Below are positions 9,160 to 24,161 of a stretch of DNA of 34,656 nt, piece after piece. This stretch comes from an uncultured Clostridia bacterium. GTDB lineage: Bacteria; Bacillota; Clostridia; Christensenellales; Borkfalkiaceae. Numbering within the stretch: the first letter of the stretch is position 1; the number at the start of each line of letters is the position of its first letter. A program made the position numbers and the translations under genes. The notes under the pieces are model-generated. The model was given only the letters and a program-made list of their open reading frames with translations. It had not been told where the DNA came from and searched no databases. Location of the stretch: contig CANQBG010000015.1 of assembly GCA_947588985.1 (NCBI GenBank), forward strand, positions 1 to 34,656, read 5' to 3'.

Positions 9160-9256
9160 ACCCTTGAGAAGGATTGACCCTCGCTGTCCCCCTTGGGGAG
9201 CCAACCCTCATACCGAGCCGAAGGCGAGTGTATCTTTTCATACCGAGGGCGTAGCC

Positions 9257-9302
9257 TGCCCCGACCGAGGTTTCTATTTGTGATTCTAAGGTCGGCACGA
9301 GC
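9257..9302 (+). repeat. Inverted repeat D, left copy (flanks the giant pilin gene)
   Basis: About 46 bp, from CTGCCCCGACCGA to GGTCGGCACGAGC, recurs as its reverse complement at 15073-15119 with one mismatch. Just beyond it, both copies have a short palindrome followed by CGAAGTAG. Here the palindrome is GCGC-GTA-GCGC; in the other copy it is GCCC-AAA-GGGC. Confidence 0.75.
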
Positions 9303-9345
9303 GCGTAGCGCGAAGTAGTGTATCTTGGCTCCGTCGAATCCTTAA

Positions 9346-9386
9346 AGATACACTCCCCCTCGCGGCGCGAGGGGTCGGTATGAGGG
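9346..9386 (+). repeat. Interspersed palindromic repeat A, copy 1
   Basis: AGATACACT, a CCCCTCGC-GGC-GCGAGGGG palindrome and GTCGGTATGAGG. The same element occurs at 15333-15372, 15537-15576 and 15601-15639 with different loops or stem bases. Confidence 0.8.
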
Positions 9387-9433
9387 GGATCATAAGGGCA
9401 TAAAAAGATCCCCCCTGCGGGCGCGGGGAGGAA

Positions 9434-10073: not shown

Positions 10074-13000
10074 TTAGGCGGACTCTTTCGGGATGACGAG
10101 CTTATAGCAATCGTAGCCGCCGTGGAATTCCGTAGCGGAAGAGAAATTCGCCGGGGTATTCGAAATATCAAAGTCCGTTGCAGAAACGCCATCCGAAGGC
10201 GAACCTGTTCCCACCTGCACCGTCACGGTGCCGCTGCCGACAAATAGCTTGGATTCCCCGTTGCCCTCGGCCGCGAACCAATTGTTGTCCTCGCCCGCGC
10301 AGACCAAATTGAGAGAGCAATTCGCGCCCACAGAGAGGGCCGTCGCCTTGTTATTGGTCGTCGAGGCCACTACGGTGCAATTCATCATCTTCTCCACAAC
10401 GGCATACGCTTGGAGGTCGAGGCCGACCGTAGCGGGATTCCCTGTTCCGTTCAAAGCAGCTCTATCTCCCGCAAGAACGCAATCCGTGATCTCCTTGATC
10501 GTAACTTTTGCCGCATCCGAAGCGCCCTTTACGAAAATCGCCGTTCCGGGACTCACAAACGAACTATCCACGATCTTGTTGATCGTAATTGTTGTACCTG
10601 CCGTGCTTGTAATATCCAATGCTTTGTCTGAATCATAACTCCCGTAAAATTTGCACCCTTCGATCGTATCGATCTGAATATCTTTTGTAGCATTTAGTTT
10701 TACGGCTTGACCGAAACAAGTTTTAACCGTAGTGTTTTTAATCTGAACACCTTTGCCCCCCTCTGTAGCGGTAGCCGTAACTTTGATACCGGTCTGTGCA
10801 TAAATATTTGCGTTATCGATTTGCGCAGAACCTCCTTCGATGGCAATTCCTACGCCGTAGACATCCCCTTGTATCGTTAAGCCGTTGACCGTTAAGTCAC
10901 CATAATATGCTGGATGACCCGGGCCGAAAATGCCATCTGGTTCCTCGTCTACATAATACGATCTGATACCGTTAAGACTCAAACTTTTTTGGGCTAGAGC
11001 GTTGGTATTGTACGTGCACAACACAAGATTCGACACCGTCAGTTCCCCCAAAGATTGTATATAATAGTGCGTAGAATCCTGAACATTCGAAGGGCTGCTG
11101 GGCATCGGAAGATTTTCTGCTTCAAAAGTACCATTTTTTATCGTCAAAGTACCGTCGTGATCTACACTTACAAGTTGGCTTTGTACATTGCTGCCATTTA
11201 GATTCATGCCTGAGCTCAGAGTATTTGAAGCAAATGTTACCGTATATCCGTTCAAATCGAAGGTTACTTTTTGGGATTCCGCAACATGAAGTGGTTGTTC
11301 AAATCCTTTATTCTGATTGCTGTTTCTATCTATATCGAGACTAGGATCGGGATTACAATAAGAACTAAATTGTGTCCACTGCGTCTTATTTTCGTCCGCC
11401 GGACGCGCATCCCGTGCGAAAAGTAAGGATATATCGCTATACAAGGTGAACGTAACATCGATATTCTGTATACCTTTCATTGAGGTAACAGTCCCACCGG
11501 TATCACTCTTGAAACATTCGTAATGCCCTACGTACGTATTCCATGCAGCATAGAGAAGCGTACCTGCGGGATCGGGTGTTCCACACGATTGTTGATTCGT
11601 ATCTTTCACCTCTATTCCCGTAGGCGCCATGCTGGCCATGAAGTAGATGACGGTCATGTCGCCCTCGGTGCTGGTATAATCTTGCAACGACATTCCTTCG
11701 GGGAGGGTCAGGAACGAAGTATCGACATCCGTATACTTCGACGCATCGCTCGTCTTATAAGACACGGTGAAGAGGATCTGCATCTCGGCCGCGGTGCCGA
11801 TTTGTTTCACCGCGTTTTTCTCTTTTTCCGACACGAGTTTGGTGACGTGTTCGGAGTACTTCTCGAGCGCTTGCGAGGCATGGTATGCCGCGAGCGCCTT
11901 ATCGAGGCCCGCGCCCTCGGCAAATGCAGCTTGGTAGGCGGCCTTAAACAAATCGGTCATCTTCGTTTCATTGTAGGTGCCAATCTCAAAGCCCGCGCCG
12001 CTGGAGCCCTTTACCTGATTTCTCGCTGCGGGGGAGAGGCCATAGTATGCCTCCACCAAGGCTGCGGCTTTGCTAAAGTCGGATACCGCCGTGCCCGTGG
12101 CGCCGTCCAACGCTTTGAAGGCGCCCACCTGCTCCGCATATCCACCTGTCTGCCGGAACGCGAAAGAAGCGGCGAACGAGGTCTCCACGGCGGACTCCGT
12201 CTTTTCGTAATACTGTTGCCCTGCCGCGGTGAAGTAGTTAGTGGCTTCGGACGACGAGGCGCTATATTTCACATAGTACGTGACGGGAGTCTGATCCTTT
12301 ACCGTCGCTTCCGTGGTGGTGTCCGATTGATACGTGCTGTTCTTGACGACGTTGACGAGGCGGATGGCTTCCTCGAGCCGATAATCTTCGTCGCTCATAG
12401 TAACCGTGGCGATATCAAAGACGCGGAGCGGGAAGAGATAGGAAGAGGTATTGGCATCGTAGGTCCCCACGCCGCCGATATTGAACTTTCCGCTCAGATC
12501 GGCGTCTCCGATCGTAAGCGTGGCGTCAGCCTTCTCCGTGCGGATGATGCCGCCCGCCTCGGCGCCACCTGCCACTTCGAACTTGCCATCGACGGTGAGG
12601 CTGCCATAGGTATTGAGGCCTGCCGCTTTCAGCTCGGCCTCCGTGGGATAGAACTTGCCGCCGGACATCTGCGCGCCCTGCTTGAGGTAGTCCATCACAT
12701 AGAGAGTGGAATCCTTTGCGACGGTCAATGTGCCGCTTGCTTGAACGGTGACTTCTGCGCCCGGGAGGATGACGTAGTGATTGTGGATGCTCATCTCCCC
12801 GAAAATCTCGAAATTGAAGTTGAAGGGCACGGGGAAGAGGACGCTCGCCGTGGATACCATGCCCAAGAGGCTCAGCGATTCGGTGCGCGCCTTGCCATAG
12901 ATTTGGACGGTCGTCCTGCCGAGGTCGCCCATGAGGTCGTTTTTCGTTTTGTCCGTCAATTCGTTGCTACCCGTGACATTTTTCGTAAATTTATACGTGC

Positions 13001-14888
13001 AGACGACTTTAGAATCGCTATCCTTTTCGAGGGTGATGAGGCCCTTGGTCGTCGAATTGCTGTCGCCATAACCGATGACGACTTCGTCGGTCGTATTATA
13101 GCCGGCGCCCGACTTCAAGTTGCAGTGCGCCCAGAGTTGGCCGCCGTAATTCACGGTGAGGGTGCTTTGGATATTGACCATGGCATACCGAAGGAAGGGA
13201 GACTGGCCAAGCTGGTAGAGCGAGAGACAGTTGGAACCGCCCGTGAAGTCGGTGACGATGAAGGGTTCGATGGCCGAGCCGCCCTCCGCAATATTGACCG
13301 CGCCACCCTTGATGTAGCCGTAGCACTCGAGGCGGCCGCCCTCTTCGATCGTGATTTGGCCTTCGCTACTAATATCGATCTGCGCGTAATTATTGGAGGT
13401 GTGGCCTTGATAATTTTGGTCGTAATACGACGTGATCCCGCCGACGACCAGCTTGCCGCCCGCCTCGACCGTGATCGACTTTCCCGCAGCGAGCGTGACC
13501 GAGAACTGCTTGTATGTTTTGCTGGAATAATTCGCATGAATGGTATTGTTATCGTCATCGACGATGCTCTTTTCGCCGGACCCGAAGCTGTGCCCGCCGC
13601 CGAGCATGCGCCCATCCGGAGTGATCGAGACGTGGCTGTATCCGTGACCCAAATAGTAGGAATCTTTGCCAGATAACGTCTCGCCCGGTTGCGTTTTATC
13701 TGCGGGAACAAACGAGTGCGGCACGCTGAGCGTGACATTCTTGGGAATGATGAGATCTTCGTCGATCGCGGTCCTATTATTGGTGAGGACGACGGTCTTT
13801 TCCTTATTAGAATAATATCCGGCTTCCTTCGCGCGATCGATCGCTTCTTGGATCGTGTGATAGAGGAACTTCTCCTCGTCTGTCGCCTTGCTCGTATCTA
13901 CATAGAAGTAGGACTGCGCCATGGCTCCGCCGAGCGACGCCACGCCCAACTTCACATTGTCTAAAGTTTGATCGAGGACGTTGTTCTGGAGGATCTCGTC
14001 ATCCGCCTTTAATCCCTTCCGAAGCGCATCCACGTTACCCGCGAAGTTCACCTCCGAAGAAAACGACTGCTCGGTCTCGCGCGTCACCGTTTCCACGGTA
14101 TCGGGCAGGACTACCGTAAGACGCTCAAAATTTGCGAAGAGCTCTACGTTTACCTCGGTGATCGTCTCATTGAACGTCACACCGGTGGGATGGGCCGCTT
14201 CCACTGTCTTGCCCTCGATCATGGTCCACTGCTGGCTGCTCCCGCTCGACGCTTGGAACATGATGATTTTGCTGCCGCCATCTCCATCCGGAACCACAAA
14301 GCCGGTGGACGAAATGATGCTTTGGATCTTCCCCTTCACCTTGGTGTTGAGTTTGCTGAAGAAATTGGTCATGTTGAAATCGTCCGTCATCGTGTGCAGG
14401 GAATAGAGAGCTTCCGCAAAACTATTCCCGCCCGTGCTCGTGATGATCCGATCTTTGAGGACCTCTTCGGGCGAATACGGATGCTCTTCGAGATAACTCT
14501 CCTGCTCTGTCGTCGCGGCGATTGCAACGATCTCGCCGCTCGTATTCTCTTTGCCGAACGTTTTCTTCAGATTGACACGCTCAAATTGATTCGTGGCCTT
14601 ATTGTAAACGATGACCATGTCGTCGTTTTTCGTGACAAGATCCTTGCTTTCGATGCCGTTGTCCTTTAAGAGCTTGCGAAGATTTTCGGCCGTGGCGTTC
14701 TCCTTGATCTCGAGATTGGTCGAAAGCACGGTGTTCATATTGCGCACGAGCTGCAGATCCGCGCTGTTGTTCGCGTTGTCGATCACGGTGATGAACGTGG
14801 GGATGAGCACTGCCGCAAGAATGGCGATGACCGCGATCACGATGACGAGCTCCACGAGCGTAAAGCCGCGTTTCTTGATTTGTTTCAT
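10074..14888 (-). CDS. Giant type IV pilin-like (pseudopilin) surface protein with beta-helix regions
   Basis: A 1604-residue protein with a classic type IV prepilin N-terminus: MKQIKKRG, cleavage before Phe9, 'FTLVELVIVIAVIAIL', with Glu at mature position 5. Prepilin peptidase should process it and the N-terminal helix could pack into a pilus or a secretion pseudopilus. Ordinary pilins have 100-200 residues. After a ~300-residue alpha/beta part, 'FLYHTIQEAIDRAKEAG' (about 340) opens a region of beta-solenoid-like strands ('GQITIEEGGRLECYG', 'GTLTVAKDSTLYVMD'). A helical, Ala-rich insert follows at about 910-1035, and then a second beta-helix to the end ('VTFDLNGYTVTF', 'IQIDTIEGCKFYGSY'). 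The last third is visibly AT-richer than the rest. AAGGAG (14900-14895) is 6 nt before the ATG. No pilus assembly genes are in the window. It lies alone between two repeat-filled gaps. An adhesin or minor pilin is the best guess. Confidence 0.75.
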   Translation of the reverse strand: MKQIKKRGFTLVELVIVIAVIAILAAVLIPTFITVIDNANNSADLQLVRNMNTVLSTNLEIKENATAENLRKLLKDNGIESKDLVTKNDDMVIVYNKATNQFERVNLKKTFGKENTSGEIVAIAATTEQESYLEEHPYSPEEVLKDRIITSTGGNSFAEALYSLHTMTDDFNMTNFFSKLNTKVKGKIQSIISSTGFVVPDGDGGSKIIMFQASSGSSQQWTMIEGKTVEAAHPTGVTFNETITEVNVELFANFERLTVVLPDTVETVTRETEQSFSSEVNFAGNVDALRKGLKADDEILQNNVLDQTLDNVKLGVASLGGAMAQSYFYVDTSKATDEEKFLYHTIQEAIDRAKEAGYYSNKEKTVVLTNNRTAIDEDLIIPKNVTLSVPHSFVPADKTQPGETLSGKDSYYLGHGYSHVSITPDGRMLGGGHSFGSGEKSIVDDDNNTIHANYSSKTYKQFSVTLAAGKSITVEAGGKLVVGGITSYYDQNYQGHTSNNYAQIDISSEGQITIEEGGRLECYGYIKGGAVNIAEGGSAIEPFIVTDFTGGSNCLSLYQLGQSPFLRYAMVNIQSTLTVNYGGQLWAHCNLKSGAGYNTTDEVVIGYGDSNSTTKGLITLEKDSDSKVVCTYKFTKNVTGSNELTDKTKNDLMGDLGRTTVQIYGKARTESLSLLGMVSTASVLFPVPFNFNFEIFGEMSIHNHYVILPGAEVTVQASGTLTVAKDSTLYVMDYLKQGAQMSGGKFYPTEAELKAAGLNTYGSLTVDGKFEVAGGAEAGGIIRTEKADATLTIGDADLSGKFNIGGVGTYDANTSSYLFPLRVFDIATVTMSDEDYRLEEAIRLVNVVKNSTYQSDTTTEATVKDQTPVTYYVKYSASSSEATNYFTAAGQQYYEKTESAVETSFAASFAFRQTGGYAEQVGAFKALDGATGTAVSDFSKAAALVEAYYGLSPAARNQVKGSSGAGFEIGTYNETKMTDLFKAAYQAAFAEGAGLDKALAAYHASQALEKYSEHVTKLVSEKEKNAVKQIGTAAEMQILFTVSYKTSDASKYTDVDTSFLTLPEGMSLQDYTSTEGDMTVIYFMASMAPTGIEVKDTNQQSCGTPDPAGTLLYAAWNTYVGHYECFKSDTGGTVTSMKGIQNIDVTFTLYSDISLLFARDARPADENKTQWTQFSSYCNPDPSLDIDRNSNQNKGFEQPLHVAESQKVTFDLNGYTVTFASNTLSSGMNLNGSNVQSQLVSVDHDGTLTIKNGTFEAENLPMPSSPSNVQDSTHYYIQSLGELTVSNLVLCTYNTNALAQKSLSLNGIRSYYVDEEPDGIFGPGHPAYYGDLTVNGLTIQGDVYGVGIAIEGGSAQIDNANIYAQTGIKVTATATEGGKGVQIKNTTVKTCFGQAVKLNATKDIQIDTIEGCKFYGSYDSDKALDITSTAGTTITINKIVDSSFVSPGTAIFVKGASDAAKVTIKEITDCVLAGDRAALNGTGNPATVGLDLQAYAVVEKMMNCTVVASTTNNKATALSVGANCSLNLVCAGEDNNWFAAEGNGESKLFVGSGTVTVQVGTGSPSDGVSATDFDISNTPANFSSATEFHGGYDCYKLVIPKESA

Positions 14889-14936
14889 AACTTTCTCCTT
14901 TTTACTTTGCTCTTCGAAGGGGGGACGGCACCGACG

Positions 14937-14972
14937 TCATTCTGAACGGAGGCGTAACCGAAGTCGAAGAAT
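14937..14972 (-). repeat. Dispersed-repeat remnant upstream of the pilin gene
   Basis: CGTCATTCTGAACGGAGGCG...CGAAGTCGAAGAATCC resembles the blocks at 9684-9792. It lies in the 5' untranslated region predicted from the promoter at 15205-15236. Confidence 0.35.
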
Positions 14973-15072
14973 CCCCTTGGTCGATGTCGGAATCGGACTT
15001 CGTACCTCGGGATCCTTCGAGGATGGGCTATTCGGACTTCGTATAGCCGTTTCGGCTACTTCGCCCTTTGGG

Positions 15073-15119
15073 CTCGTGCCGACCTTAGAATCACAAATAG
15101 AAACTTCGGTCGGGGCAGA
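15073..15119 (-). repeat. Inverted repeat D, right copy
   Basis: Reverse complement of 9257-9302 with one mismatch over about 46 bp. It lies 185 bp upstream of the giant pilin gene, so the two copies bracket that gene in opposite orientation, 5.8 kb apart. Confidence 0.75.
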
Positions 15120-15204
15120 ATGACGGCGTCACCCATCGCTCGGGATTCAGTTGGGTTGTCCACAATGCCGCCGTCGTTATCCACGCCCATTCGAAGGCAT
15201 AACT

Positions 15205-15236
15205 ATCATAACACCTACACCCCCCCCCCGTGTCAA
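15205..15236 (-). promoter_or_regulatory. Candidate phase-variable promoter of the giant pilin gene (poly-G spacer)
   Basis: On the minus strand, a perfect TTGACA (15236-15231) and TATGAT (15210-15205, with a TGT extended -10) are 20 bp apart. The spacer holds ten consecutive G (15229-15220). A 20-bp spacer is 3 longer than optimal, so slippage of the G run would change promoter strength. The predicted start is near 15198, ~310 nt before the pilin ATG, and no other convincing promoter is seen in between. Confidence 0.6.
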
Positions 15237-15332
15237 GGATTTTTCATGCCTTTTTTGAAAAAATTTTGGGAAATCTTTTGTTTTGGAGTAGTTTGTAGTA
15301 AGAAATTGAGTGAAATGAGGAAAGGGAGGGGA

Positions 15333-15372
15333 AGATACACTCCCCCTCGCTCCGCTCGGGGTCGGTATGAGG
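15333..15372 (+). repeat. Interspersed palindromic repeat A, copy 2
   Basis: Same flanks as 9346-9386. The palindrome is CCCCTCGC-TCC-GCTCGGGG, with a changed loop and one altered stem position. Confidence 0.75.
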
Positions 15373-15380
15373 GGGGCCCC

Positions 15381-15434
15381 TTGGCTCCACCTTTTGGGGG
15401 AGCTGTCACGGAGTGACTGAGGGGGTTCGCTCAT
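15381..15434 (-). repeat. Interspersed palindromic repeat B, copy 3 (inverted)
   Basis: Reverse-complement copy of the elements at 9879-9929 and 9951-10003, with the same GTCAC palindrome. It follows repeat A copy 2 directly. Confidence 0.75.
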
Positions 15435-15444
15435 ATCCTTCCCC

Positions 15445-15500
15445 GCTGCGAACCCCTTTCCCCCGCTCCGCGGGTACTTTCCCCAGAGGGGACAGCAAGG
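15445..15500 (-). repeat. Interspersed palindromic repeat C, copy 2 (inverted)
   Basis: Read on the minus strand: GCTGTCCCC, TGGGGAAAGT, the palindrome CCCGC-GGA-GCGGG, GAAAGGGGTTCGCAG. It corresponds to 9818-9866, but the palindrome stem is different. Confidence 0.65.
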
Positions 15501-15516
15501 GCTCGGTATGAGGATG

Positions 15517-15639
15517 GGGGCAGGATGATTGCGGGAAGATACACTCCCCCTCGCGGGGCGAGGGGTCGGTATGAGGAGCGGGGGCAGGATGATTGTGGGA
15601 AGATACACTCCCCCTCGCGAGCGAGGGGTCGGTATGAGG
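15517..15639 (+). repeat. Tandem pair of 64-bp units carrying palindromic repeat A (copies 3 and 4)
   Basis: GGGGGCAGGATGATTG, then YGGGAAGATACACT, a CCCCTCGC palindrome and GTCGGTATGAGG occur twice with a 64-bp period. The first copy has a GGG loop, the second a shortened GA loop. The duplication includes unique sequence outside the palindrome, so it is a local tandem duplication. Confidence 0.75.
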
Positions 15640-15693
15640 GACTGTCCTCCTTGAGGGGACAGCGAGGAGTTCGCGCGTTTACAATATATATAT

Positions 15694-15723
15694 GAAGCCC
15701 GCCTCCGGATGGAGGCGGGCTTC
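15694..15723 (-). terminator. Strong hairpin downstream of the DUF1858 gene
   Basis: A perfect 13-bp stem (15694-15706 with 15711-15723) with a 4-nt loop lies 60 bp after the DUF1858 stop. On the minus strand it is followed by ATATATATAT rather than a T-run, so termination is likely but not typical. Confidence 0.45.
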
Positions 15724-15782
15724 CCGCTTTCTCGTTCATGCGACTTTTGCGTTCATGCCGCTCGCGTGCAAAAGGTTTGAGG

Positions 15783-15977
15783 TCAAATGCCTTCGTTGAG
15801 CTTATTCAGAAGCTCGTCGAGATCGTTGCCGTGCACTTCGACCGCCTCGGCAATCGTTTCGCCATGCGCCAAGGCGCATCCGAAGCAGTGCATCCCCGCA
15901 GCCATCAGAATTTCCGCCGCGTTGGGGTTGAGCTCGAGGCAATCCGCGATGAGCGTATCCGCCGTGATCTTTGCCAT
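15783..15977 (-). CDS. DUF1858 domain protein
   Basis: A 64-residue protein that consists of a single DUF1858 domain: 'ITADTLIADCLELNPNAAEIL', then the conserved 'GMHCFGCALAHGETIAEA' with a CxxC pair, then a C-terminal helix. The family is found alone or fused to redox and hybrid-cluster-type proteins; its reaction is unknown, and the two Cys suggest thiol redox or metal chemistry. GGAGG precedes ATG 15977 by 8 nt. A good sigma-A promoter lies at 16007-16035, between this gene and spoVAC, so it can be transcribed independently. A strong hairpin follows. The family assignment is confident. The function is not known. Confidence 0.85.
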   Translation of the reverse strand: MAKITADTLIADCLELNPNAAEILMAAGMHCFGCALAHGETIAEAVEVHGNDLDELLNKLNEGI

Positions 15978-16006
15978 AATGGTTTCCTCCCGTATTTTTC
16001 CCCTCT

Positions 16007-16035
16007 ATTCTACCACGTTCGCCGCCGCTTTTCAA
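16007..16035 (-). promoter_or_regulatory. Sigma-A promoter of the DUF1858 gene
   Basis: Minus-strand TTGAAA (16035-16030) and TAGAAT (16012-16007) with a 17-bp spacer. The predicted start at ~16000 gives a short leader of about 22 nt. Confidence 0.7.
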
Positions 16036-16062
16036 CTGTTTTTCGAAAGGTTTTCCGAAAAT

Positions 16063-16518
16063 TTACAGGCCGAGCAAAAAATAGATGAGTCCGACGGCCG
16101 CTCCGGCGCTCACGCCGAACACGATGATGGGCCCGGCGACGACGAACATCTTGGCCGCCATGCCATAGACGTAGCCCTCCGTCTTGAACTCGATGGCGGG
16201 CGAAGCGACGGAATTGGCAAAGCCCGTGATGGGCACGATGCTGCCCGCGCCGGCGTTTTTCCCGATCCTGTCGTAGACGCCGAGGCCGGTGAGCAGCGTT
16301 CCCAAAAAGATGAGGATCGCGGAGACCGTGCCGGCGAGGATATCCCCGCGCAGGCCGGCGTACTCTAAAAGGATGCGGAAGAACTGCCCGACGCAGCAGA
16401 TGAATCCGCCGACGAGGAAGGCTCTCAGGCACGTCTTGAAGTGTTGTGTGGGCGGATCGAAGGAATTGACGTAGCGGAGATAATTTCGGTTATAATTTTC
16501 GCGCGTCTTGCCCGTCAC
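16063..16518 (-). CDS. spoVAC: Stage V sporulation protein AC (SpoVAC)
   Basis: A 151-residue membrane protein close to SpoVAC over its full length. It has 'LRAFLVGGFICCVGQ', 'LIFLGTLLTGLGVYDRIGKNAGAGSIVPITGFANSVASPAIEFK' and 'AAKMFVVAGPIIVFGVSAG', with about four hydrophobic segments. In spore formers, the SpoVA proteins form a forespore-membrane channel for dipicolinic acid uptake during sporulation and release during germination. The start is GTG 16518, with a purine-rich AAGGGGG 8 nt upstream; it overlaps the TGA of a possible 30-codon ORF. SpoVAC is usually encoded with spoVAD and spoVAE/B, but here neither lies beside it, so the other subunits should be elsewhere. This gene is strong evidence that the host makes endospores. 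Confidence 0.9.
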   Translation of the reverse strand: MTGKTRENYNRNYLRYVNSFDPPTQHFKTCLRAFLVGGFICCVGQFFRILLEYAGLRGDILAGTVSAILIFLGTLLTGLGVYDRIGKNAGAGSIVPITGFANSVASPAIEFKTEGYVYGMAAKMFVVAGPIIVFGVSAGAAVGLIYFLLGL

Positions 16519-16607
16519 GGTCGGATCCCCCTTGCTCCCGCCTCCGGGAAGCAGCTCTCCCGCTCCTCTTTGGTTTTCCCGAGCGGGTTGTCCTTTCCCT
16601 TTTTCAT
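16516..16607 (-). CDS. Possible 30-residue ORF overlapping the spoVAC start
   Basis: ATG 16607 opens a 30-codon frame (begins MKKGKDNPLGK, ends GIRP) that stops in a TGA overlapping the GTG of spoVAC (GTGA). The peptide is charged and Gly/Pro rich, with no membrane segment. AGGGG lies only 1 nt from the ATG, which is poor spacing. It may be a leader peptide that couples translation into spoVAC, or a chance frame. Confidence 0.25.
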
Positions 16608-16679: not shown

Positions 16680-17174
16680 TTATTTCACATAGGAAGCGAG
16701 GAGGTCGTAGAGGGTGGAATAGAAGTCCCCGAGATAGGTGCGGGCGAGCGAATCCATGTGGTAAGCCTCGAGACGGGCCGCCGCGTCGCTCGTGACGTGC
16801 ATATAATAGTCACGGACGACGAGAAAGCGTTGGGAATAAGAGAGGTTATAATTGGGATTCTCGGGGTAGCGGTAAGGGCCCAACTCGTTGCCCTCCGAGC
16901 CGAGGGCCTCATAGGCGAGTTGATAGAGAAGGTCCTCGCGGATGACGGCGATCTCCGTCTCGGCCGCTTGGTCGATGGCCCCCTCCTCCCGCGTGCGGAC
17001 GGAGGCGCGCAGATTGTCGTTGCCGAGGAGATGATAGAAGAGGTTCTCCCTGGAGGTGGCGGCCTGCGCCGTTACGGCGTCCTTCTTGGCCTGCGCCGCC
17101 CGCACCATGGCGAGCTGCACGGGCGAGAGATCGGCGTACTGCGGATCGCTGAGGTCGATGATATCGATGGTCAC
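16680..17174 (-). CDS. Phage-type protein at the end of the head module, function unknown
   Basis: A 164-residue protein. GTG 17174 is chosen because GGAGG lies 7 nt before it and the GTGA overlaps the stop of the upstream beta-propeller gene. It starts 'TIDIIDLSDPQYADLSPVQLAMVRAAQAKKD', a segment predicted helical, and then has long amphipathic helices ('TREEGAIDQAAETEIAVIREDLLYQLAY') and a Tyr-rich C-terminal part. No enzyme motif, signal or membrane segment is seen. It is the last gene of the tightly coupled module. By position it corresponds to the tail-accessory genes that follow gp10 in P22-like phages, but sequence similarity is not apparent. Structural role inferred. Confidence 0.55.
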   Translation of the reverse strand: MTIDIIDLSDPQYADLSPVQLAMVRAAQAKKDAVTAQAATSRENLFYHLLGNDNLRASVRTREEGAIDQAAETEIAVIREDLLYQLAYEALGSEGNELGPYRYPENPNYNLSYSQRFLVVRDYYMHVTSDAAARLEAYHMDSLARTYLGDFYSTLYDLLASYVK

Positions 17175-18433
17175 GGCGACACCTCCCGAAAGTGTACGGT
17201 CACGGCCTCGACGGCGGCTTCGGGATCGGAGGTCGTAAGGTCGCATCGGAGCGTTTCCCCGCGCAAAAATCTCTCCGGGAGCAGCCGCTTTCCCGCGACG
17301 GTCTCCCGCGAGATGCGGCCCGCCTCCGTCTCGAGCGAGACCGTAAATTTACCCTTCCCGTGGACGGTGACGCCCGCGACCATGCGCGGCGCGCCGTTGC
17401 TCCCGCCGATATCGAGGAGGTACGAAATGCGCTTCTCTTTTTCGATGGTTTGCGGCGTGAGACGTGAAAGGGTGGTACCATGTACGAGGTAGACCCCATC
17501 GTAAGCGCTTGTGAGCAGCTCGGCTTCCTCCTCGATGAGGTAGTCCCCCGCGACGGGATCATAGACGTAGATACACCCCTCGCCGCCCGGTTTTTGGGCG
17601 AGGAAGAAGTACTTCCCGGCGTACCCTGCGGCCTGTACGGGGCGGACGGGCGTCACGCCGAAGCTCGTCCGCACGAGGCGGACCGAGCCATCGACGACGT
17701 GGAGCCCGCGCTCCGTGAGGAAGGCCAAATAGGAGCCGCAGTCGGCCGCGGAGCCGGGGTAGATCGTCTCGCCGTCGAACAGCACGCGGCGGAAGCGGAA
17801 ATCGAGGTCGTCGGCGTCCGCTTCGAGCGTGCAGAGGCCGTGCTCGCGGAAGCAATAGAGGGCGTCCCGGAAGGAAATCATGGCGTGGATGTTCCCCTCC
17901 GTGCCCGAGAGCGCCACCGAGCCGGAGCACCGCCCTTCCTCGGAAAACTGCGTGGGACCGAGGGGAACGGAATAGCGCAGGGTGCTGCCCTTGGCTATGA
18001 ACACGCGCTCGCGGTGGACCGCCATGCAGTCCCCGCCCGCCGCACCCTCCACGCCGCCGAACTGCTCCGGCGAACGGTAGCGGGTCATCCCCGTATCCCA
18101 CAGCAGGTAAAAATCGCGCACGCCGTCCTCTCCCCAATAGGAAATGACGCCGTTGAGGCCACCCATGCCCGCGAATGCCCCCTCATCGGGATAGACGCTA
18201 TAGAATCCGTTCATGCCGATGAAGAGCTTCCCCTCGGCCGAGAACATGCGCTTTGCGCCGCGGAGCGAGGTGGAGACGGGGAGCGGCTCGGCCGTCTCGG
18301 CGGGGATCAGCGCGCCCCCTTCCCGCCGGAAGCCGTAGAGCTTGCGCCACAACACGCGCCCGCCCTCCTCAAGCCCTATCCGCAGGGCCCGGTGCGTGGG
18401 CCGCGGTATGGTCAACTTTTTGAGCGGGATCAT
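17171..18433 (-). CDS. Phage beta-propeller protein, P22 gp10-like tail-accessory/DNA-stabilisation candidate
   Basis: A 420-residue protein. ATG 18433 overlaps the upstream TGA (ATGA), and GGAGG is 5 nt before it. The body is a series of short beta-blades such as 'GKLFIGMNGFYSVYP', 'DFYLLWDTGMTRYR', 'MAVHRERVFIAKGSTLRYS', 'DALYCFREHGLCTLE', 'SYLAFLTERGLHVVDG' and 'GCIYVYDPVAGDYLIEEE', typical of a beta-propeller, followed by a C-terminal beta-rich domain. In P22-like phages the gene after the gp4 connector encodes gp10, which plugs the portal and joins it to the tail. The gene order here (portal, scaffold, coat, connector-like, propeller) matches that. The fold is seen in the sequence pattern; the gp10 equivalence is inferred from order. 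Confidence 0.55.
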   Translation of the reverse strand: MIPLKKLTIPRPTHRALRIGLEEGGRVLWRKLYGFRREGGALIPAETAEPLPVSTSLRGAKRMFSAEGKLFIGMNGFYSVYPDEGAFAGMGGLNGVISYWGEDGVRDFYLLWDTGMTRYRSPEQFGGVEGAAGGDCMAVHRERVFIAKGSTLRYSVPLGPTQFSEEGRCSGSVALSGTEGNIHAMISFRDALYCFREHGLCTLEADADDLDFRFRRVLFDGETIYPGSAADCGSYLAFLTERGLHVVDGSVRLVRTSFGVTPVRPVQAAGYAGKYFFLAQKPGGEGCIYVYDPVAGDYLIEEEAELLTSAYDGVYLVHGTTLSRLTPQTIEKEKRISYLLDIGGSNGAPRMVAGVTVHGKGKFTVSLETEAGRISRETVAGKRLLPERFLRGETLRCDLTTSDPEAAVEAVTVHFREVSP

Positions 18434-18969
18434 ATCCACCTCCGGCTGCGCATGGCGAGCGGCCTGCGGGTCTGCCCTGCCGCGCGGATCGCCTCGCGGT
18501 ATTTTTCGTCGTACACCGTCGCCTCCGCGAGTCTGCCGCAGGCGAGCAGGTATTCAGTCGCCGTGCCGTAGGCGAGCAGCCGCGCCGAGACGGCGCCCGC
18601 AAAGTCGGAGTTCTCCCCGAGGCGTTTTGCGGCGGGGGCGTAGGCGTAAGTCACGTTGGCGCTGCCCGCGTACCCCTTGAGGTCGAGGTAGGCGGGGAAG
18701 GCCTCGAACGCGAGTGCGCAGCCGTAAGGATCGGTCACGCGGAGGATGTGTACGGGGGCCGACGAGAGCGCCGCATACTCCATTTTATCGCTTACGGCGA
18801 CTTCCTCCGTCCGTTTGAGGGGGAAATAGTCGAGCGCGACCTCGTTTTCCACGAAATTGAAGCAGCGGACCAAGAGGAGGACTTCCTCCGAAGATTCGTC
18901 CTCCAAGTTGGCCGTACTTCCGACAAGGCGGGCCGCCGCCTCAACAACTTCCTTGACTGTGATCGGCAT
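18430..18969 (-). CDS. Phage head-completion/connector-like protein (gp4 position)
   Basis: A 179-residue protein starting 'MPITVKEVVEAAARLVG', followed by 'EEVLLLVRCFNFVENEVALDYFPLK' and later beta-rich and helical segments ending in basic residues. N-terminal helical pairs of this kind ('VKEVV..AA.LVG...') are typical of head-tail adaptor proteins that bind below the portal. It lies just after the major capsid gene and before the beta-propeller gene, the place of gp4 in P22-like modules. GGGGAG lies ~9 nt from ATG 18969, and the gene is 16 bp from the capsid stop. No catalytic motif is visible. The adaptor role is inferred from position and helix pattern. Confidence 0.5.
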   Translation of the reverse strand: MPITVKEVVEAAARLVGSTANLEDESSEEVLLLVRCFNFVENEVALDYFPLKRTEEVAVSDKMEYAALSSAPVHILRVTDPYGCALAFEAFPAYLDLKGYAGSANVTYAYAPAAKRLGENSDFAGAVSARLLAYGTATEYLLACGRLAEATVYDEKYREAIRAAGQTRRPLAMRSRRWI

Positions 18970-18985
18970 GCCTTGTCTCCCCTCC

Positions 18986-20146
18986 TCAGGCTTCGTCGAT
19001 CCCGGTGAGCATGGCCTGCCCGGCGGGACGGTAGCAGAGCAGCTCGGCGTATTTCACGAGCGTGGCCTTGTAGACGGGCTTATCGGCAACCTGCTTCAAG
19101 ATCTTGCCGCTCTCGCCCTCGAGCCACTGCCAATCGCAGAGCTGGTGCAGGGCAAAGTCGTCGGTGTTGAGCAGGTACATCGTCCCCTCGGGGCAGAAGC
19201 GGTCGGCAACGACGGGGATGCCGCCGAAGCTGATGGCCTTGAAGCCGCCCTCGAGCTCGAGCGTCTCGGTGGCGCGGTACGCCGAGAGCAGTTTGAAGAG
19301 CGCCCTGCGCACCCCCCACGAGCACACGATGAAGTTGACCTTGCTGCCCGAATTGGCCTCCACGTCGTCGATGGCCTTCTGGATGACCTCTTCGCTGAGC
19401 GCGCCGACTTCCGTCTTGATGTAGGGAGTCATCCACGCGTTGCCCTTGCGCGGCACGCCATAGAGATCGCCCGTGCCGAAGATGGCGCCGAGGCCGGTGA
19501 TCTCGAGGTCCTTGGACTTCTGGATGTAGATGCCGTAGTCGGTGGGCGTGGAGATGGCCGACCCCGAGAGGGTGACTTTCTTGTTTGCGCGGTCTACCGA
19601 CGTCACCGTCCGATAGGAGCCCGCGTTGATGCCGTCGCCGTCAAAGACGTCCACGATCATGCCCTCCGCGAGGTTGCGGACGCTATCCACGACGTAGGTC
19701 TTATTGTCGGACCCGTCGACGGACTTGATGGTGGCGAGTTTGCCGGTGCCGTCTCCGAAGAGCATGCGGCCGAAGTTGAAGGAGGCCGTCTTGACGAGCC
19801 CGTCCATCTCGTCGTTGAGGAGATCCACAAAGGCGCCCTCCGCCCCCTTGGAGGAACGGATGGCCTTATCGGAGATCTCGATGACGCCATAGAGATTTTT
19901 GAGCGGCGCGACGAACTGCTTGTAGTTGTTCCCTCCCGCGGTGGGGAGCGCGTCCGTCTCCGTTCCCGCGGCGATGCCGCCGTTTACGCCGAAGCGCACG
20001 GCCTTTCTCACGTCCTTCCCCCACACGTCGGACGTCGTCTTTTTGATCTGCGCGAGCAGGGGATTGACGGACTTATCGAGCTGATCGCTCACCGCGCTCA
20101 GGTAGTAAGATTTCAAAACGCTGTCGGCTGTTCCTGTATCGATCAT
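18986..20146 (-). CDS. Phage major capsid protein (HK97-fold type)
   Basis: A 386-residue protein with the features of HK97-fold coat proteins. An N-terminal helical part is followed by 'KNLYGVIEISDKAIRSS' and 'FVDLLNDEMDGLVKTASFNFGRMLFGDGTGKL' (about residues 84-138), the usual spine-helix region with the 'GDGTG' turn. A beta-rich E-loop/P-domain-like section and a C-terminal 'YKATLVKYAELLCYRPAGQAML' follow. It would self-assemble into the procapsid around the scaffold and portal. AGGAG lies 6 nt before ATG 20146. It follows the scaffold-like gene by 39 bp. No N-terminal prodomain or protease gene is obvious, which fits P22-like coats that are not cleaved. The frame is intact, with no sign of decay. 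Confidence 0.85.
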   Translation of the reverse strand: MIDTGTADSVLKSYYLSAVSDQLDKSVNPLLAQIKKTTSDVWGKDVRKAVRFGVNGGIAAGTETDALPTAGGNNYKQFVAPLKNLYGVIEISDKAIRSSKGAEGAFVDLLNDEMDGLVKTASFNFGRMLFGDGTGKLATIKSVDGSDNKTYVVDSVRNLAEGMIVDVFDGDGINAGSYRTVTSVDRANKKVTLSGSAISTPTDYGIYIQKSKDLEITGLGAIFGTGDLYGVPRKGNAWMTPYIKTEVGALSEEVIQKAIDDVEANSGSKVNFIVCSWGVRRALFKLLSAYRATETLELEGGFKAISFGGIPVVADRFCPEGTMYLLNTDDFALHQLCDWQWLEGESGKILKQVADKPVYKATLVKYAELLCYRPAGQAMLTGIDEA

Positions 20147-20185
20147 ACTGTACTCCTTTTGATGCGGGGCGCGGCATACCCCGAA

Positions 20186-20548
20186 TTATTTTTGCCGCTT
20201 GAGATAGTTGAGGGCGAGACTGCCGGCCTCCGCGATCGAGGCGGGGCGCTGCATGGGCGCAACGACCCCCATTCCCCCCGCCCCCATGAGGGGGACTTTG
20301 GGCGCTTGCAGGAAGGCCGCCGGGAAGGCGACGGGCTCTTCGCTCTGCCCGCGCGGCGCGGCCTCGGGCCTTTCGAGGGAGGCGAGCTGCTCCTCGAGCG
20401 CTTTCAGCCGTTGACTGCGGCGGGTAAATTCGGCCTCCAACTCCCCATAGGCGTGCGTCAGGGCATCTACGCTCTTGAATTTGCCCGCGAGAAGCCCTGT
20501 TTCGGACATGCCCCCCTCGGATTCTGCGTGTTTGTTTTCCTCTTCCAC
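20186..20548 (-). CDS. Putative phage scaffolding protein
   Basis: A 120-residue, highly charged protein. It has an acidic N-terminus, then 'GLLAGKFKSVDALTHAYGELEAEFTRRSQRLKALEEQLASLE', a helix with coiled-coil character, then a Pro/Gly-rich linker, and a basic C-terminal helix ending 'NYLKRQK'. Phage scaffolds commonly have this design: a coiled coil for self-association and a basic C-terminal helix that touches the coat. It lies between portal and coat genes, as in P22 (gp8). It is much shorter than P22 gp8 (about 300 residues). The start is GTG 20548 with AGGAG 8 nt upstream, 3 bp after the portal stop. The role rests on position and composition. Confidence 0.6.
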   Translation of the reverse strand: MEEENKHAESEGGMSETGLLAGKFKSVDALTHAYGELEAEFTRRSQRLKALEEQLASLERPEAAPRGQSEEPVAFPAAFLQAPKVPLMGAGGMGVVAPMQRPASIAEAGSLALNYLKRQK

Positions 20549-20551
20549 AAA

Positions 20552-22396
20552 TTACTCTCCTTTGCGGCGGTGGCTTTCGAGGTGGCGCACCATCCTCGCC
20601 TTTGTCGCCGCGTCGTTTTCCCCGCCCGAAAGCAGGGCCCGGAGGTGCTCGGTGATATGCACGGCGTGGTCGTCGTAACTATCCGCCTCCACCTCCTCCT
20701 GCGCCAAAAGCACGTTCTCCCGCTCCGCCTTGCGAAGATGCAAGTAGGAGATATCCCGTGCCGTTTCGAGCGAGCCGTAGCCGAGCGCGTCTAAGACGCG
20801 CGTGCGCACCTCGCCCGAAAGTTCGCCTTTCTCATCCTGCAAGAGTCCGAGGCTCAAGAGACTTAAAATTTCCTCCCGCACTTGCTCGGGCGTCTTATCG
20901 TACCCCGTGGTAAACTCCACGTCGTCCGCCGAAATATCGCTTGCGTCGAAGTAGAAGAGCTCGGTATCCCCGCCCGTTCCCGTCATGCGAAGGAGACGCT
21001 TGGTGTGCGCGAACTGCTTATAAAGGTGCAGAATCTGTTTGCCCGCTTCCTTTACGGCACGCTCAATGCTCTCCGTCGCCTGATGCATCCGGTTGGTATC
21101 CTGTTCGAGGAGCAGTCTCAGGCCCACTGCGCTCGTGACATGGGTGGGATTGGCGGAGTTGCGCGAGATCTCACTCATGCCGGAGACGAGGATAAACTCG
21201 TCTGCGATGCGCTCCTCTTCGGCCTCGAATTCGGGCGGGAGACTCCCGCAATCGAGGAAGCGGGGCGCATCCGAGCCGCGCCGGTAGACGAGGATCTTTC
21301 CCGGGTACAACCCCTCGTCTGCGAGCGCGTCCGCGTCCACGGAACCGTCCTCCACCGCGATGACGCCCGCAGTCAGCCTGTTGAGAAACTCATGCTTGCG
21401 GTTTCTCACCGCGTTATACGCGCGCTGCAGGGGGATCATGCGGTCTACGACCGACGTTCCGAAGAAGGCGCCCGCGAGTTCGATGCTCGTCTGCCGGATA
21501 AAGGGCAAGATCCGCTCCCCGCGGTCGCCGTTTTGATACGGAAGGGGCCCCTCATAGAGGAGCTTATCCCCCGCTACGATCTCCAACCGTCCGTCGGGGT
21601 GCTCCCCGCACGGCCGGGTATACCGTTCGATCAAAATTTCCCTGTTCTCGAGGGAAGGGTGAAAACTGCCGTCGATGGGCCGCTTCCAATTGCTCGGCGT
21701 GGAATAGGGCGCGAGCGAAAATTCGTCGATCGTCCTGCCCGCGATCTCCACGCCGAAGCGCTCGAAAATCTCGGATACGGGGACGGCTTTCGCATGGATC
21801 AAGCTCTTGATCTCAGACATGCCCCCCGCGTTTAATGTGTCGGGGTAGATCTCAAAGGGGGAGAGCGCGATGACGTTGACGTCCCCTTCCCGCACGGAAT
21901 GCCCGCTCTCGTCGGCGCCGATGAGCTTGCCGTCCTCGAAATTCCACACCACTTTATAAAACGCCGTGCCGCACACCTCCGACCAGAGCGTGGCCTCCGA
22001 GATGACCCGATCGAGGTCGATGCGGTTCTTTGCAGACTTCAATATATTGGAAGCGACGCGCGCGATCTGTATGTCCGCTTCGCTATCGGAAAAGGCCCGC
22101 ACCTCGAGGGAGGGGCGCACGGCCGCGAGCTTGGCAATGCGGGTATCCACGGTGGGCGCGATGTGGTTGAAGCACCGCCGCGACCGCCAGAAGAAATCCG
22201 CCGTCTCCTCTTCGAGTTCCCCCTCGGGCGTGACGTCGCAGAATTGGTTGCCGCTCAAAAAGTTCATATTGAGCTCCCAACCCCGTTCGAGATGCCGCCG
22301 CATCTCCCTTCTCGCCGCGAAATCCGCCGCCACTTCGGCCGCCAAGGCCTGCTTTCGCGCGGCTTCCCGCCGCTCCCGTTCCTGTTGTTCCGTCAT
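20552..22396 (-). CDS. Phage portal protein (P22-like family)
   Basis: A 614-residue protein. It begins with a long charged helix, then 'ELNMNFLSGNQFCDV' and 'RRCFNHIAPTVDTRIAKLAAVRPSLEV', the usual opening of P22-type portals. 'WSEVCGTAFYKVVWN' and 'EGDVNVIALSPFEIYPD' (about residues 137-186) fit the wing. 'VDRMIPLQRAYNAVRNRKHEFLNRLTAGVIAVEDGSVD' (about 317-354) fits the stem and clip. A helical C-terminus follows. Twelve copies would form the ring through which terminase pumps DNA. ATG 22396 overlaps the upstream TGA (ATGA). It is full length for the family and intact. Confidence 0.85.
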   Translation of the reverse strand: MTEQQERERREAARKQALAAEVAADFAARREMRRHLERGWELNMNFLSGNQFCDVTPEGELEEETADFFWRSRRCFNHIAPTVDTRIAKLAAVRPSLEVRAFSDSEADIQIARVASNILKSAKNRIDLDRVISEATLWSEVCGTAFYKVVWNFEDGKLIGADESGHSVREGDVNVIALSPFEIYPDTLNAGGMSEIKSLIHAKAVPVSEIFERFGVEIAGRTIDEFSLAPYSTPSNWKRPIDGSFHPSLENREILIERYTRPCGEHPDGRLEIVAGDKLLYEGPLPYQNGDRGERILPFIRQTSIELAGAFFGTSVVDRMIPLQRAYNAVRNRKHEFLNRLTAGVIAVEDGSVDADALADEGLYPGKILVYRRGSDAPRFLDCGSLPPEFEAEEERIADEFILVSGMSEISRNSANPTHVTSAVGLRLLLEQDTNRMHQATESIERAVKEAGKQILHLYKQFAHTKRLLRMTGTGGDTELFYFDASDISADDVEFTTGYDKTPEQVREEILSLLSLGLLQDEKGELSGEVRTRVLDALGYGSLETARDISYLHLRKAERENVLLAQEEVEADSYDDHAVHITEHLRALLSGGENDAATKARMVRHLESHRRKGE

Positions 22397-22659
22397 ACAT
22401 CCTCCGTTTTTTGTTGCGACTTGGCGTATTCCTCCAAGAGCCGCTCTCGTTCCCGTTCGAGCTCCTCATCGGAGAGGGCCGCGTAGTCCTTCTCGTCAAT
22501 GAGCAGCTTTGCCGCCTTCAGGTCGGGCGGCACGTCCTTTTTGGTCTCCTTGCGCTTGATGAGCCGGAGTTCCCCGTCCTTCATGTCGTATTCCTCGGTG
22601 ACTTCCTCGATGGAATAGCCGAGGGCCACCCGCAGGATGGCGTCTTTGAGCTTATCCAT
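22393..22659 (-). CDS. Small phage protein between terminase and portal
   Basis: An 88-residue, charged protein: 'LKDAILRVALGYSIEEVTEEYDMKDGELRLIKRKETKKDVPPDLKAAKLL', then an acidic, helical 'LSDEELERERERLLEEYAK' tail. Proteins with this 'ALGY..EEVTEEY...PPD..A.K.L' pattern often lie beside the large terminase in Firmicutes prophages and may serve as a small terminase-like or accessory packaging protein; their role is not established as far as I know. It has no nuclease or ATPase motif. It lies 18 bp after the terminase stop and overlaps the portal start by 4 bp. Confidence 0.6.
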   Translation of the reverse strand: MDKLKDAILRVALGYSIEEVTEEYDMKDGELRLIKRKETKKDVPPDLKAAKLLIDEKDYAALSDEELERERERLLEEYAKSQQKTEDV

Positions 22660-22677
22660 ACATCCTTGCTTCCTCCT

Positions 22678-24108
22678 TTACCGGCGTTTTCCCGCGCGCA
22701 TGACCGCACGGATGCGCTTTTGTTTGTCCCGCTCGATCTCGCTCTGCGCGGCGGCCGGCGGCGTTCGCGGACGGCTCATGAGATAGTATCTGAGCTCGTC
22801 CATCGCGTGGTCGTCCCTCTTTACGGGGCGTTCGTCGCTTCCCCAGAAGTATCCCTTGAACTCGCGGATCATGTGGACGCAGTTGGAGAAGATATAGAGA
22901 TCGGGGAAGCTGTTTTTGCGGGAGAGGTAACTCTTGACCTGCGCGATCCCGCTATACAGGTCCTTATCCACGAGGGGAGAGACGAGAATGCCGCGGTCTT
23001 GGAAGAGCTCCGAAACGCTCTTCTGCGCGGCGAGCGTCCTCGCTTCGGCGGCCGCGTCGATGAGGGCCTCGAGCCTCCCCTTCCCGTCCCGCTTCCAACC
23101 GAGCTTCTCGGAGATGGCGTCGATCGCGGCGGCATGTTCATCCACCCCCGCCCCCGCGAGATAGTGCTCCGCGACGACGTAGACGTTCCCGTCGTTGTCC
23201 ACCGCGTACCAATGGGCGGAGAGCGGATTTTTGAGCCCGGGGTCGATGGAGATGGTATCCTGCCACGCAGGCGGCACGTCGAAGGGGGGAATGACGTGCA
23301 CGCTCTCGTCGAATTCGGGGTAGACGAGCCCCTCGCGCATGCAGAACTTCCCATAGCGGCGGGATTGCAGCGTCGTCTCGTCCATGGTGCTCTCGAGGAG
23401 GGCGATCTCCTTCTTGGAGAGGTAGGGATTATCCGCCCACTCCATGAATTCATACCAGATCTCGGGGTCGTTTTTGGGATTGAGGTAGATGCGTTCATAG
23501 GCAAAGGTGAGGCCCTTTAAGGGCGTCATGGTGCCGAAGATATCCCCCTCCTTATCGACGACGCGCATGCGGCATTCCTCATAGATGTCCTCGGGCGGCT
23601 CCTCGTCGAACCACACGAAGTCGAGCGAGCTGCCCTGAAAGCGCTCCCGCCCCATCTCGCAGCTCTTGAAGCCGATCACCGACGTCCCCCCGAACACGTT
23701 TTTCACGAGAATTTGATCGATGACCCCGGACATGGGTGCGTCCTTTCTGCCGCTCGCCATCACGATGTCCGCGATCTGGTCGCTTCTTAGGTAGTGCAGG
23801 ATCTTCTTTTGGGCGACGTCGCGCTGGACCTGCGAGGTGAGCGAGACGACCCATCCGAACACATTGGGCCTGTTCTTGCGGTACGGATGGACGCCGCGTG
23901 CCATCCACACGGCCTCTACGGCTCCGCATTCCGTCTTGCCCGAGCGGTTGCCGCCGAACACCCAGCGGTTGCGCTTCTTGCACTTGTGGAAGGCGAGCTG
24001 TTTTTTGTGCTTTTTGGGGCCCTTGTTGTAGCGGGCGAGCGCGTCCTCCTCCCGCCGTTTTCGCTGTTCGGCCTCGATCGCCATGATTTTCTGCAATAAT
24101 TCGTCCAT
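22678..24108 (-). CDS. Phage terminase large subunit
   Basis: A 476-residue protein. The ATPase domain has 'GGNRSGKTE' (about residues 51-59) as Walker A and 'LDFVWFDEEPPEDIYEE' (about 161-177) as Walker B with the catalytic Glu, followed by a motif III-like 'GTMTPLKG'. The nuclease domain has 'ISIDPGLKN' (about 286) as the first Asp and 'KRDDHAMDELRYY' (about 430) as the last acidic pair. It would cut and pump phage DNA into the procapsid through the portal. Start choice is uncertain: ATG 24108 has only a weak purine stretch upstream, and an in-frame TTG at 24141 would add 11 residues. It is the first gene of the head module and shares a ~50-bp divergent region with a membrane-protein gene. 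All motifs are intact. Confidence 0.9.
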   Translation of the reverse strand: MDELLQKIMAIEAEQRKRREEDALARYNKGPKKHKKQLAFHKCKKRNRWVFGGNRSGKTECGAVEAVWMARGVHPYRKNRPNVFGWVVSLTSQVQRDVAQKKILHYLRSDQIADIVMASGRKDAPMSGVIDQILVKNVFGGTSVIGFKSCEMGRERFQGSSLDFVWFDEEPPEDIYEECRMRVVDKEGDIFGTMTPLKGLTFAYERIYLNPKNDPEIWYEFMEWADNPYLSKKEIALLESTMDETTLQSRRYGKFCMREGLVYPEFDESVHVIPPFDVPPAWQDTISIDPGLKNPLSAHWYAVDNDGNVYVVAEHYLAGAGVDEHAAAIDAISEKLGWKRDGKGRLEALIDAAAEARTLAAQKSVSELFQDRGILVSPLVDKDLYSGIAQVKSYLSRKNSFPDLYIFSNCVHMIREFKGYFWGSDERPVKRDDHAMDELRYYLMSRPRTPPAAAQSEIERDKQKRIRAVMRAGKRR

Positions 24109-24161
24109 ATTCGGCAAAACTTCGCGGAATTCGCCCTCCAAATTGCGCTATGCTTGCGCGT

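Follow-up and report, generated by a model that had tools for sequence, protein, structure and literature searches.

Does a run of ten G, set between the two hexamers of the promoter that faces a giant pilin-like gene, act as a switch, and does it stand alone? The run lies in the window, by which we mean the whole stretch of 34,656 nucleotides analysed here from an uncultured Clostridia bacterium (contig CANQBG010000015.1), and the initial annotation had read it as a likely phase-variation tract, noting a TTGACA and a TATGAT with an extended -10 placed 20 bp apart around the ten G. Direct reading of the minus strand bears out each of these elements, which are laid out, together with the gene downstream, as follows.

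15237..15312, minus strand: A/T-rich block of about 76 bp, similar without being identical across six promoter copies in the genome
15236-15231, minus strand: perfect -35 hexamer TTGACA, read directly, identical in 6/6 members of the promoter family described below
15230, minus strand: single C between the -35 hexamer and the G run, read directly
15229-15220, minus strand: G10 tract within the spacer, read directly
15219-15211, minus strand: nine bases, TGTAGGTGT, between the G10 tract and the -10 hexamer, read directly
15210-15205, minus strand: -10 hexamer TATGAT preceded by TGT (extended -10), giving a spacer of 20
14889..15204, minus strand: 5' leader of the pilin mRNA, 316 nt, if this promoter is used
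10074..14888, minus strand: giant type IV pilin-like gene, 1604 aa, N-terminus MKQIKKRGFTLVELVIVIAVIAILAAVLIPTF, ATG at 14888

The A/T-rich block may be UP-element-like. The pilin-like character of the gene, already proposed, is upheld by a match of the 1604-aa protein to the Pfam family N_methyl (E 7.7e-7), and the protein would be exposed at the cell surface. The G run by itself is unremarkable, with three overlapping G8 matches in the window against 2.36 expected from its composition. The combination is another matter: TTGACA, at least seven G and TATNAT occur in this order once in the window and in 0/100 dinucleotide shuffles, which together with the empty reversed controls of the genome searches rules out a chance origin of the combined pattern. 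The window promoter thus carries one feature of promoters of the porA and tp0126 type, a homopolymer of at least seven between a recognisable -35 and -10. A generic promoter scan covered spacers of 16-18 only and therefore leaves this promoter, with its spacer of 20, unlisted.

The surroundings of the promoter are themselves repetitive. Within the leader, about 14932-15128 is a dispersed repeat of the genus with 13-nt imperfect inverted ends, perhaps a MITE-like element, which may also be the cause of the contig ends found beside sister promoters. A 551-base query that includes the promoter, the leader repeat and the pilin start matched in 69/103 genus genomes; among the matches listed outside the window's genome, many fall in the leader-repeat part, others at the pilin start and none on the promoter part, so that the tract of the window can be judged from its paralogues only. 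No Rfam family matches at gathering score within 14000-16600. Upstream of the promoter, 44-nt direct repeats (GGGAAGATACACTCCCCCTCGC...GGTCGGTATGAGG) are present at 15329-15372, 15533-15576 and 15597-15640, and text resembling them, by eye, is found near 9170-9390. Some 2 kb farther upstream than the promoter, phage-like genes lie on the minus strand at 17171-24141 and comprise an internal-virion-protein-like match, an SU10-like capsid protein, a P22-like portal and a terminase large subunit. A phage origin of the promoter was considered and set aside, as the viral collection holds no copy of the promoter and none of the pilin; a narrower poly-G promoter pattern has 0 matches there, in a search run without a positive control.

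The genome to which the window belongs (G000; 1.6 Mb, 69 contigs, 84% complete) contains 35 runs of at least eight G. Its promoters are readily recognised, since TTGACA-N13-22-TATNATA gives 61 matches and the reversed control 0; the ordinary-promoter pattern gave a few reversed-control matches in one search and none in another. With a slightly wider -10 rule, which leaves out promoters whose -10 precedes C or T, and with equal-flank entries collapsed, 13 distinct promoters with at least seven G and 53 ordinary ones were read. The genes behind the 13 are seven pilin-like and five lipoprotein genes, the last one lying off a contig end, whereas the ordinary promoters with a readable gene precede a lipoprotein in 5/45 cases and a pilin in none. 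Pilins or lipoproteins, as assigned here and below together with signal peptides by simple motif and hydropathy rules and not by a trained predictor, thus follow 12/12 readable poly-G promoters against 5/45 ordinary ones (Fisher p 9e-9), a type of gene that would fit the surface-protein targets named in the earlier proposal. The two poly-G lipoproteins that were scanned contain BspA-type leucine-rich repeats and Listeria-Bacteroides repeats. A 14th poly-G promoter, on C26 (TTGACA-T-G10-N9-TATAATC), is missed by the -10 rule; the protein encoded behind it has 276 aa and begins like a signal peptide.

Six of the poly-G promoters form a family with a common upstream block of about 76 bp, namely those on C15 (the window), C12, C19 (at 26644 and at 49), C29 and C60. 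In this order their tracts are G10, G10, G9, G10, G10 and G10, and their spacers 20, 16, 19, 20, 20 and 20. Three of the six stand no more than about 80 nt from a contig end, at the start of the repeated leader.

The view of a single locus, from which the initial annotation started, had to be given up, the same arrangement recurring throughout the genome and the genus. TTGACA-N0-9-G7-N0-14-TATNATA is found in 68/103 genus genomes and its reversed control in 0/103; the matches total 159 and are partly second matches at one promoter. The genus loci that were read give 152 distinct promoters, a count that leaves out those whose -10 precedes C, and these stand ahead of 87 lipoproteins, eight pilins, 21 other signal-peptide or membrane proteins and 26 other proteins, with ten lacking a readable gene. 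The 26/142 promoters with a readable gene that precede no obvious surface type include some followed, by eye, by ABC-ATPase-like genes. Three of the genus genomes, G005, G002 and G069, are recorded as Clostridia bacteria; two of them are labelled Lapin, presumably for rabbit, and one comes from water-deer colon.

Across the order, the pattern is present in 56/396 genomes and 21/142 genera (reversed control 0/396), a distribution that divides into 11/14 same-genus genomes, 0/20 genomes from other genera of the same family and 45/362 of the remainder, the 45 including 17, 12 and 7 in families f19, f32 and f28, respectively. Farther away, a Candidatus Ancillula genome holds 22 matches with tracts of G9-G15 and spacers of 15-21, and the reversed control of the poly-G pattern was also empty in a set of 50 genomes (0/50). 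Bacilli genomes labelled Lapin (those of loci L159, L109 and L070) show 21, 18 and 36 matches, and the genes that follow in the Bacilli loci read form small families encoding membrane or secreted proteins. Single matches in far-off phyla, among those listed, may be due to chance and were set aside.

If the tract tunes the distance between the hexamers, the distribution of spacer lengths should be informative, and here poly-G promoters depart strongly from ordinary ones. The ordinary promoters of four genus genomes, counted with a pattern limited to spacers of 14-21, have 17 bp in 110/145 cases, the others being 16 (14), 18 (16), 15 (3) and 19 (2), and those of the window's genome have 17 in 45/53. 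Among the 152 poly-G promoters of the genus, by comparison, only seven have a spacer of 17, against 38 at 15, 27 at 16, 18 at 18, 17 at 19, 19 at 20 and 26 at other lengths; the 13 in the window's genome have spacers of 16 (4), 17 (2), 19 (4) and 20 (3). The scarcity of 17 bp is seen both where the tract touches the -10 (2/35) and elsewhere (5/117), and it persists once promoters of the G002 type, a clustered family described below, are removed (7/140). For promoters ending in TATAATA with spacers of 14-21, a spacer of 17 occurs in 3/88 poly-G promoters (Fisher p about 1e-30 in comparison with ordinary promoters). The dip at 17 relative to its neighbours 16 and 18 (7/52, p 0.001) is to be taken as a guide only, related promoters being non-independent. 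A tract held one to three steps on either side of an ON length fits a switch that is OFF by default.

Does the tract change in length between copies that are otherwise alike? The initial annotation had proposed looking for such variation in related genomes, and it is encountered both among paralogues of the window's genome (G9/G10) and in one set from three genomes. In the latter, a lipoprotein promoter of G066, G001 and G079 (L261, L274 and L316) has tracts of G10, G9 and G9 and spacers of 16, 14 and 15, with flanks identical at 58-60/60 positions upstream and 56-57/60 downstream; the base beside the tract differs as well as the number of G. In the former, the short-pilin promoters on C2 and C34 have G10 and a spacer of 17 and the adjacent C34 copy has G9 and a spacer of 16, the C34 pair being identical across the 36 upstream bases compared and the C2 promoter and the G9 copy at 58/60 upstream and 25/25 downstream positions. 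The three-genome set is the only one among homologous loci across genomes in which both flanks are near-identical. A second homologous set (L307, L318 and L320, from G013, G017 and G080) has spacers of 17, 15 and 13, but is weak evidence for length change, since L307 and L318 agree at 59/60 downstream positions and the other flank comparisons at 16-38/60, leaving at most one flank in common. At the opposite extreme stand the eleven clustered lipoprotein promoters of G002, with G8 in ten and G7 in one, a family that looks fixed or recently copied. All these comparisons use one assembly per species, probably from short-read metagenomes, in which G runs can be miscounted.

Loss of mismatch repair would be a ready driver of unstable tracts, as MutS suppresses slippage, but it is rejected for the window's genome, where MutS_I is present; MutS is found in 36/37 same-genus genomes, the window's included, which counts against slippage, and MutS_I in 58/61 genomes. 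Besides a normal MutS, four genomes contain open frames that span some 3300-3770 codons and give a MutS_I-like match (G001:C51, G006:C2, G013:C125 and G024:C50).

Taken together, the gene association, the tract differences between paralogues and between genomes, and the spacers on both sides of 17 lend support to phase variation by tract slippage, as originally suggested, and we consider it probable that the window promoter is phase-variable and belongs to a genome-wide set ahead of surface-protein genes. From these patterns we infer that slippage is the cause, which length is ON, that transcription is affected, that the products are surface-exposed and that the benefit is antigenic or adhesive diversity. 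On this reading, the G10 tract would gain or lose G by replication slippage, altering a spacer that now measures 20 bp, and the spacer length would in turn set how well the sigma-A RNA polymerase uses both hexamers. A spacer of 17, corresponding to seven G in the window promoter, would be the ON state, and with ten G the promoter would be weak or OFF. From 20 bp, taken here to be a weak state, the loss of three G would by arithmetic give 17, in agreement with the tp0126 and porA data discussed below.

The members of the set would drive satellite type IV pilin-like proteins and adhesin-like lipoproteins, and the pilins of the window's genome indicate how such satellites may relate to the pilus machinery. 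Eleven sequences in the genome match the N-terminus of the window pilin, one of them weakly (39% identity), and a poly-G promoter stands ahead of 7/10 of the others. The pilin on C52 probably has a poly-G promoter too, because its contig opens with a leader resembling, by eye, the end of the C60 promoter contig. The pilins on C65 and C31 have, also by eye, ordinary-looking TTGACT promoters without a G run. The neighbours of the C31 pilin are a prepilin peptidase, a T2SSF (PilC-type) protein, an ATPase fragment (MshEN and T2SSE) and two further N_methyl proteins, and the locus (G000:C31:5000-12500) is a type IV pilus assembly locus. From its content and from the promoter readings it follows that the pilin of the assembly locus has an ordinary-looking promoter and that most satellites carry tracts; the machinery would thereby stay available while the poly-G pilins flicker. 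The start of the C31 pilin is nearly identical to that of a poly-G pilin on C34.

The strongest competitor, which we regard as unlikely, is that the G tract is a fixed element, serving as a binding site or as part of the structure of surface-gene promoters that form a stable class, weak or dependent on a regulator. It draws on the uniformity of some families, such as the G8 tract and spacer of 15 in 10/11 of the clustered G002 promoters and the G9 tract and spacer of 15 in four G030 members of another cluster, on the sharp mode at G9 (77/152 genus promoters), and on a strand bias, 159 matches having the spacer tract as G on the coding strand against 6 that have it as C, the latter in 5/103 genus genomes. 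This bias is not predicted by slippage alone; it may reflect the origin of such tracts or a promoter role of the G tract. A fixed element should, however, have one preferred spacer, whereas the 152 spacers range from 11 to 27 and lie on both sides of 17, the start of the tract varies from 0 to 9 bases past the -35 (9 being the limit of the pattern), and the lipoprotein promoters L261, L274 and L316 differ at the tract within near-identical flanks. MerR-type promoters work with spacers of 19-20 bp, and a single such length is likewise at odds with the 16, 17, 19 and 20 found in the window's genome and the 16, 19 and 20 of the window family; among the inverted repeats sought (at least 10 nt), no pair falls in the spacer as a MerR-type operator dyad would.

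Two further explanations would leave the tract in place and remove its meaning. Errors of sequencing or assembly in G runs, by which the tracts would be real and their lengths and the scarcity of 17 bp untrustworthy, seem to us improbable. Annotated G-tract lengths can indeed be wrong, as a study on Bifidobacterium breve warns (PMC9187656), and in G009 (L017, L029 and L259) TTGACA is followed by G17-G23, several times at a contig end, which are very long tracts or an assembly artefact. Yet miscounts falling at random would neither deplete the 17 class while populating the lengths around it nor change the base beside the tract as in the three-genome set, and the recurrence and the gene association are independent of exact length. 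Least probable of all is an incidental promoter, transcription of the pilin gene starting elsewhere in the 316-nt leader so that the tract matters little. The length of this leader and the dispersed repeat it holds speak for such a start; against it, the C12 paralogue has the same type of promoter 91 nt ahead of its pilin start codon, poly-G promoters stand 26-87 nt ahead of the starts of four other pilins, and on the minus strand the generic scan, for spacers of 16-18, lists nothing promoter-like at 14889-15204.

A phase-variable promoter of this kind has well-studied relatives. In Treponema pallidum, according to PMC7864442, the promoter of tp0126, which encodes an OmpW homologue, has a poly-G between -35 and -10 and is transcribed best when the spacing is 17 nt, and the tprL, tprE, tprG and tprJ promoters also carry poly-G, so that several such loci exist per genome. 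The likeness to the present system lies in poly-G tracts in promoters of surface-protein genes, at several loci of one genome; T. pallidum is a spirochaete pathogen, in which the effect of length was measured. The targets also differ, being in the gut Clostridia pilins and lipoproteins, in some genomes paralogous families. The same paper describes, for Neisseria meningitidis, a poly-G between the -35 and -10 of porA with an optimal spacing of 17, a placement shared with the window promoter, and for opc a poly-C region that encompasses the -35, unlike the Clostridia tracts, which are G on the coding strand (159 matches against 6 with C). The authors of PMC9187656 report that in B. breve G-tract slippage switches sortase-dependent pili, and mention further tracts in promoter spacers. 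This resembles the present case in that G-tract slippage acts on pili of a gut commensal, and differs in that the tract studied there sits within the pilin reading frame, where it affects translation, and that the pili are of the sortase type.

Random switching of surface genes at the promoter is also achieved by the invertible promoters of gut bacteria, which differ from the slippage proposed for the window promoter in using recombinase inversion. The window promoter was not identified as one of these, since the three pairs of inverted repeats (at least 10 nt) within 14900-15600 include none with arms on both sides of 15205-15236.

In N. meningitidis, promoter-type loci are few per genome, and most known cases of promoter switching by slippage come from a few pathogens. 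The titles and abstract openings listed in open-access literature searches report no switching of promoters by poly-G tracts for Christensenellales, Faecalibacterium or other gut Clostridia. The mechanism is already known; the host group and scale look new. The observation at this locus is confirmed, its reading as phase variation is supported, unproven, and the scale on which it recurs is unusual. Going further, we see the balance tipping slightly in favour of a promoter-based phasome, taken as a whole, in this Clostridia genus, evolved independently in further gut lineages as well (some Bacilli, Candidatus Ancillula and other families of the order). In it, poly-G switches would act gene by gene on surface lipoproteins and satellite pilins at one to three steps from a 17-bp ON state, selection would keep most genes OFF by default and the promoter of the pilus machinery would remain ordinary; the near-constant G on the coding strand hints that the tract does something in the promoter besides changing length. 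If this is true, these commensals would exist as mixtures of surface types, with consequences for attachment to the host, for recognition by its immune system and for sensitivity to phages. From the scarcity of 17-bp spacers it is predicted that most assembled states are OFF, and the sequence signature would allow switching to be read from existing metagenome reads.
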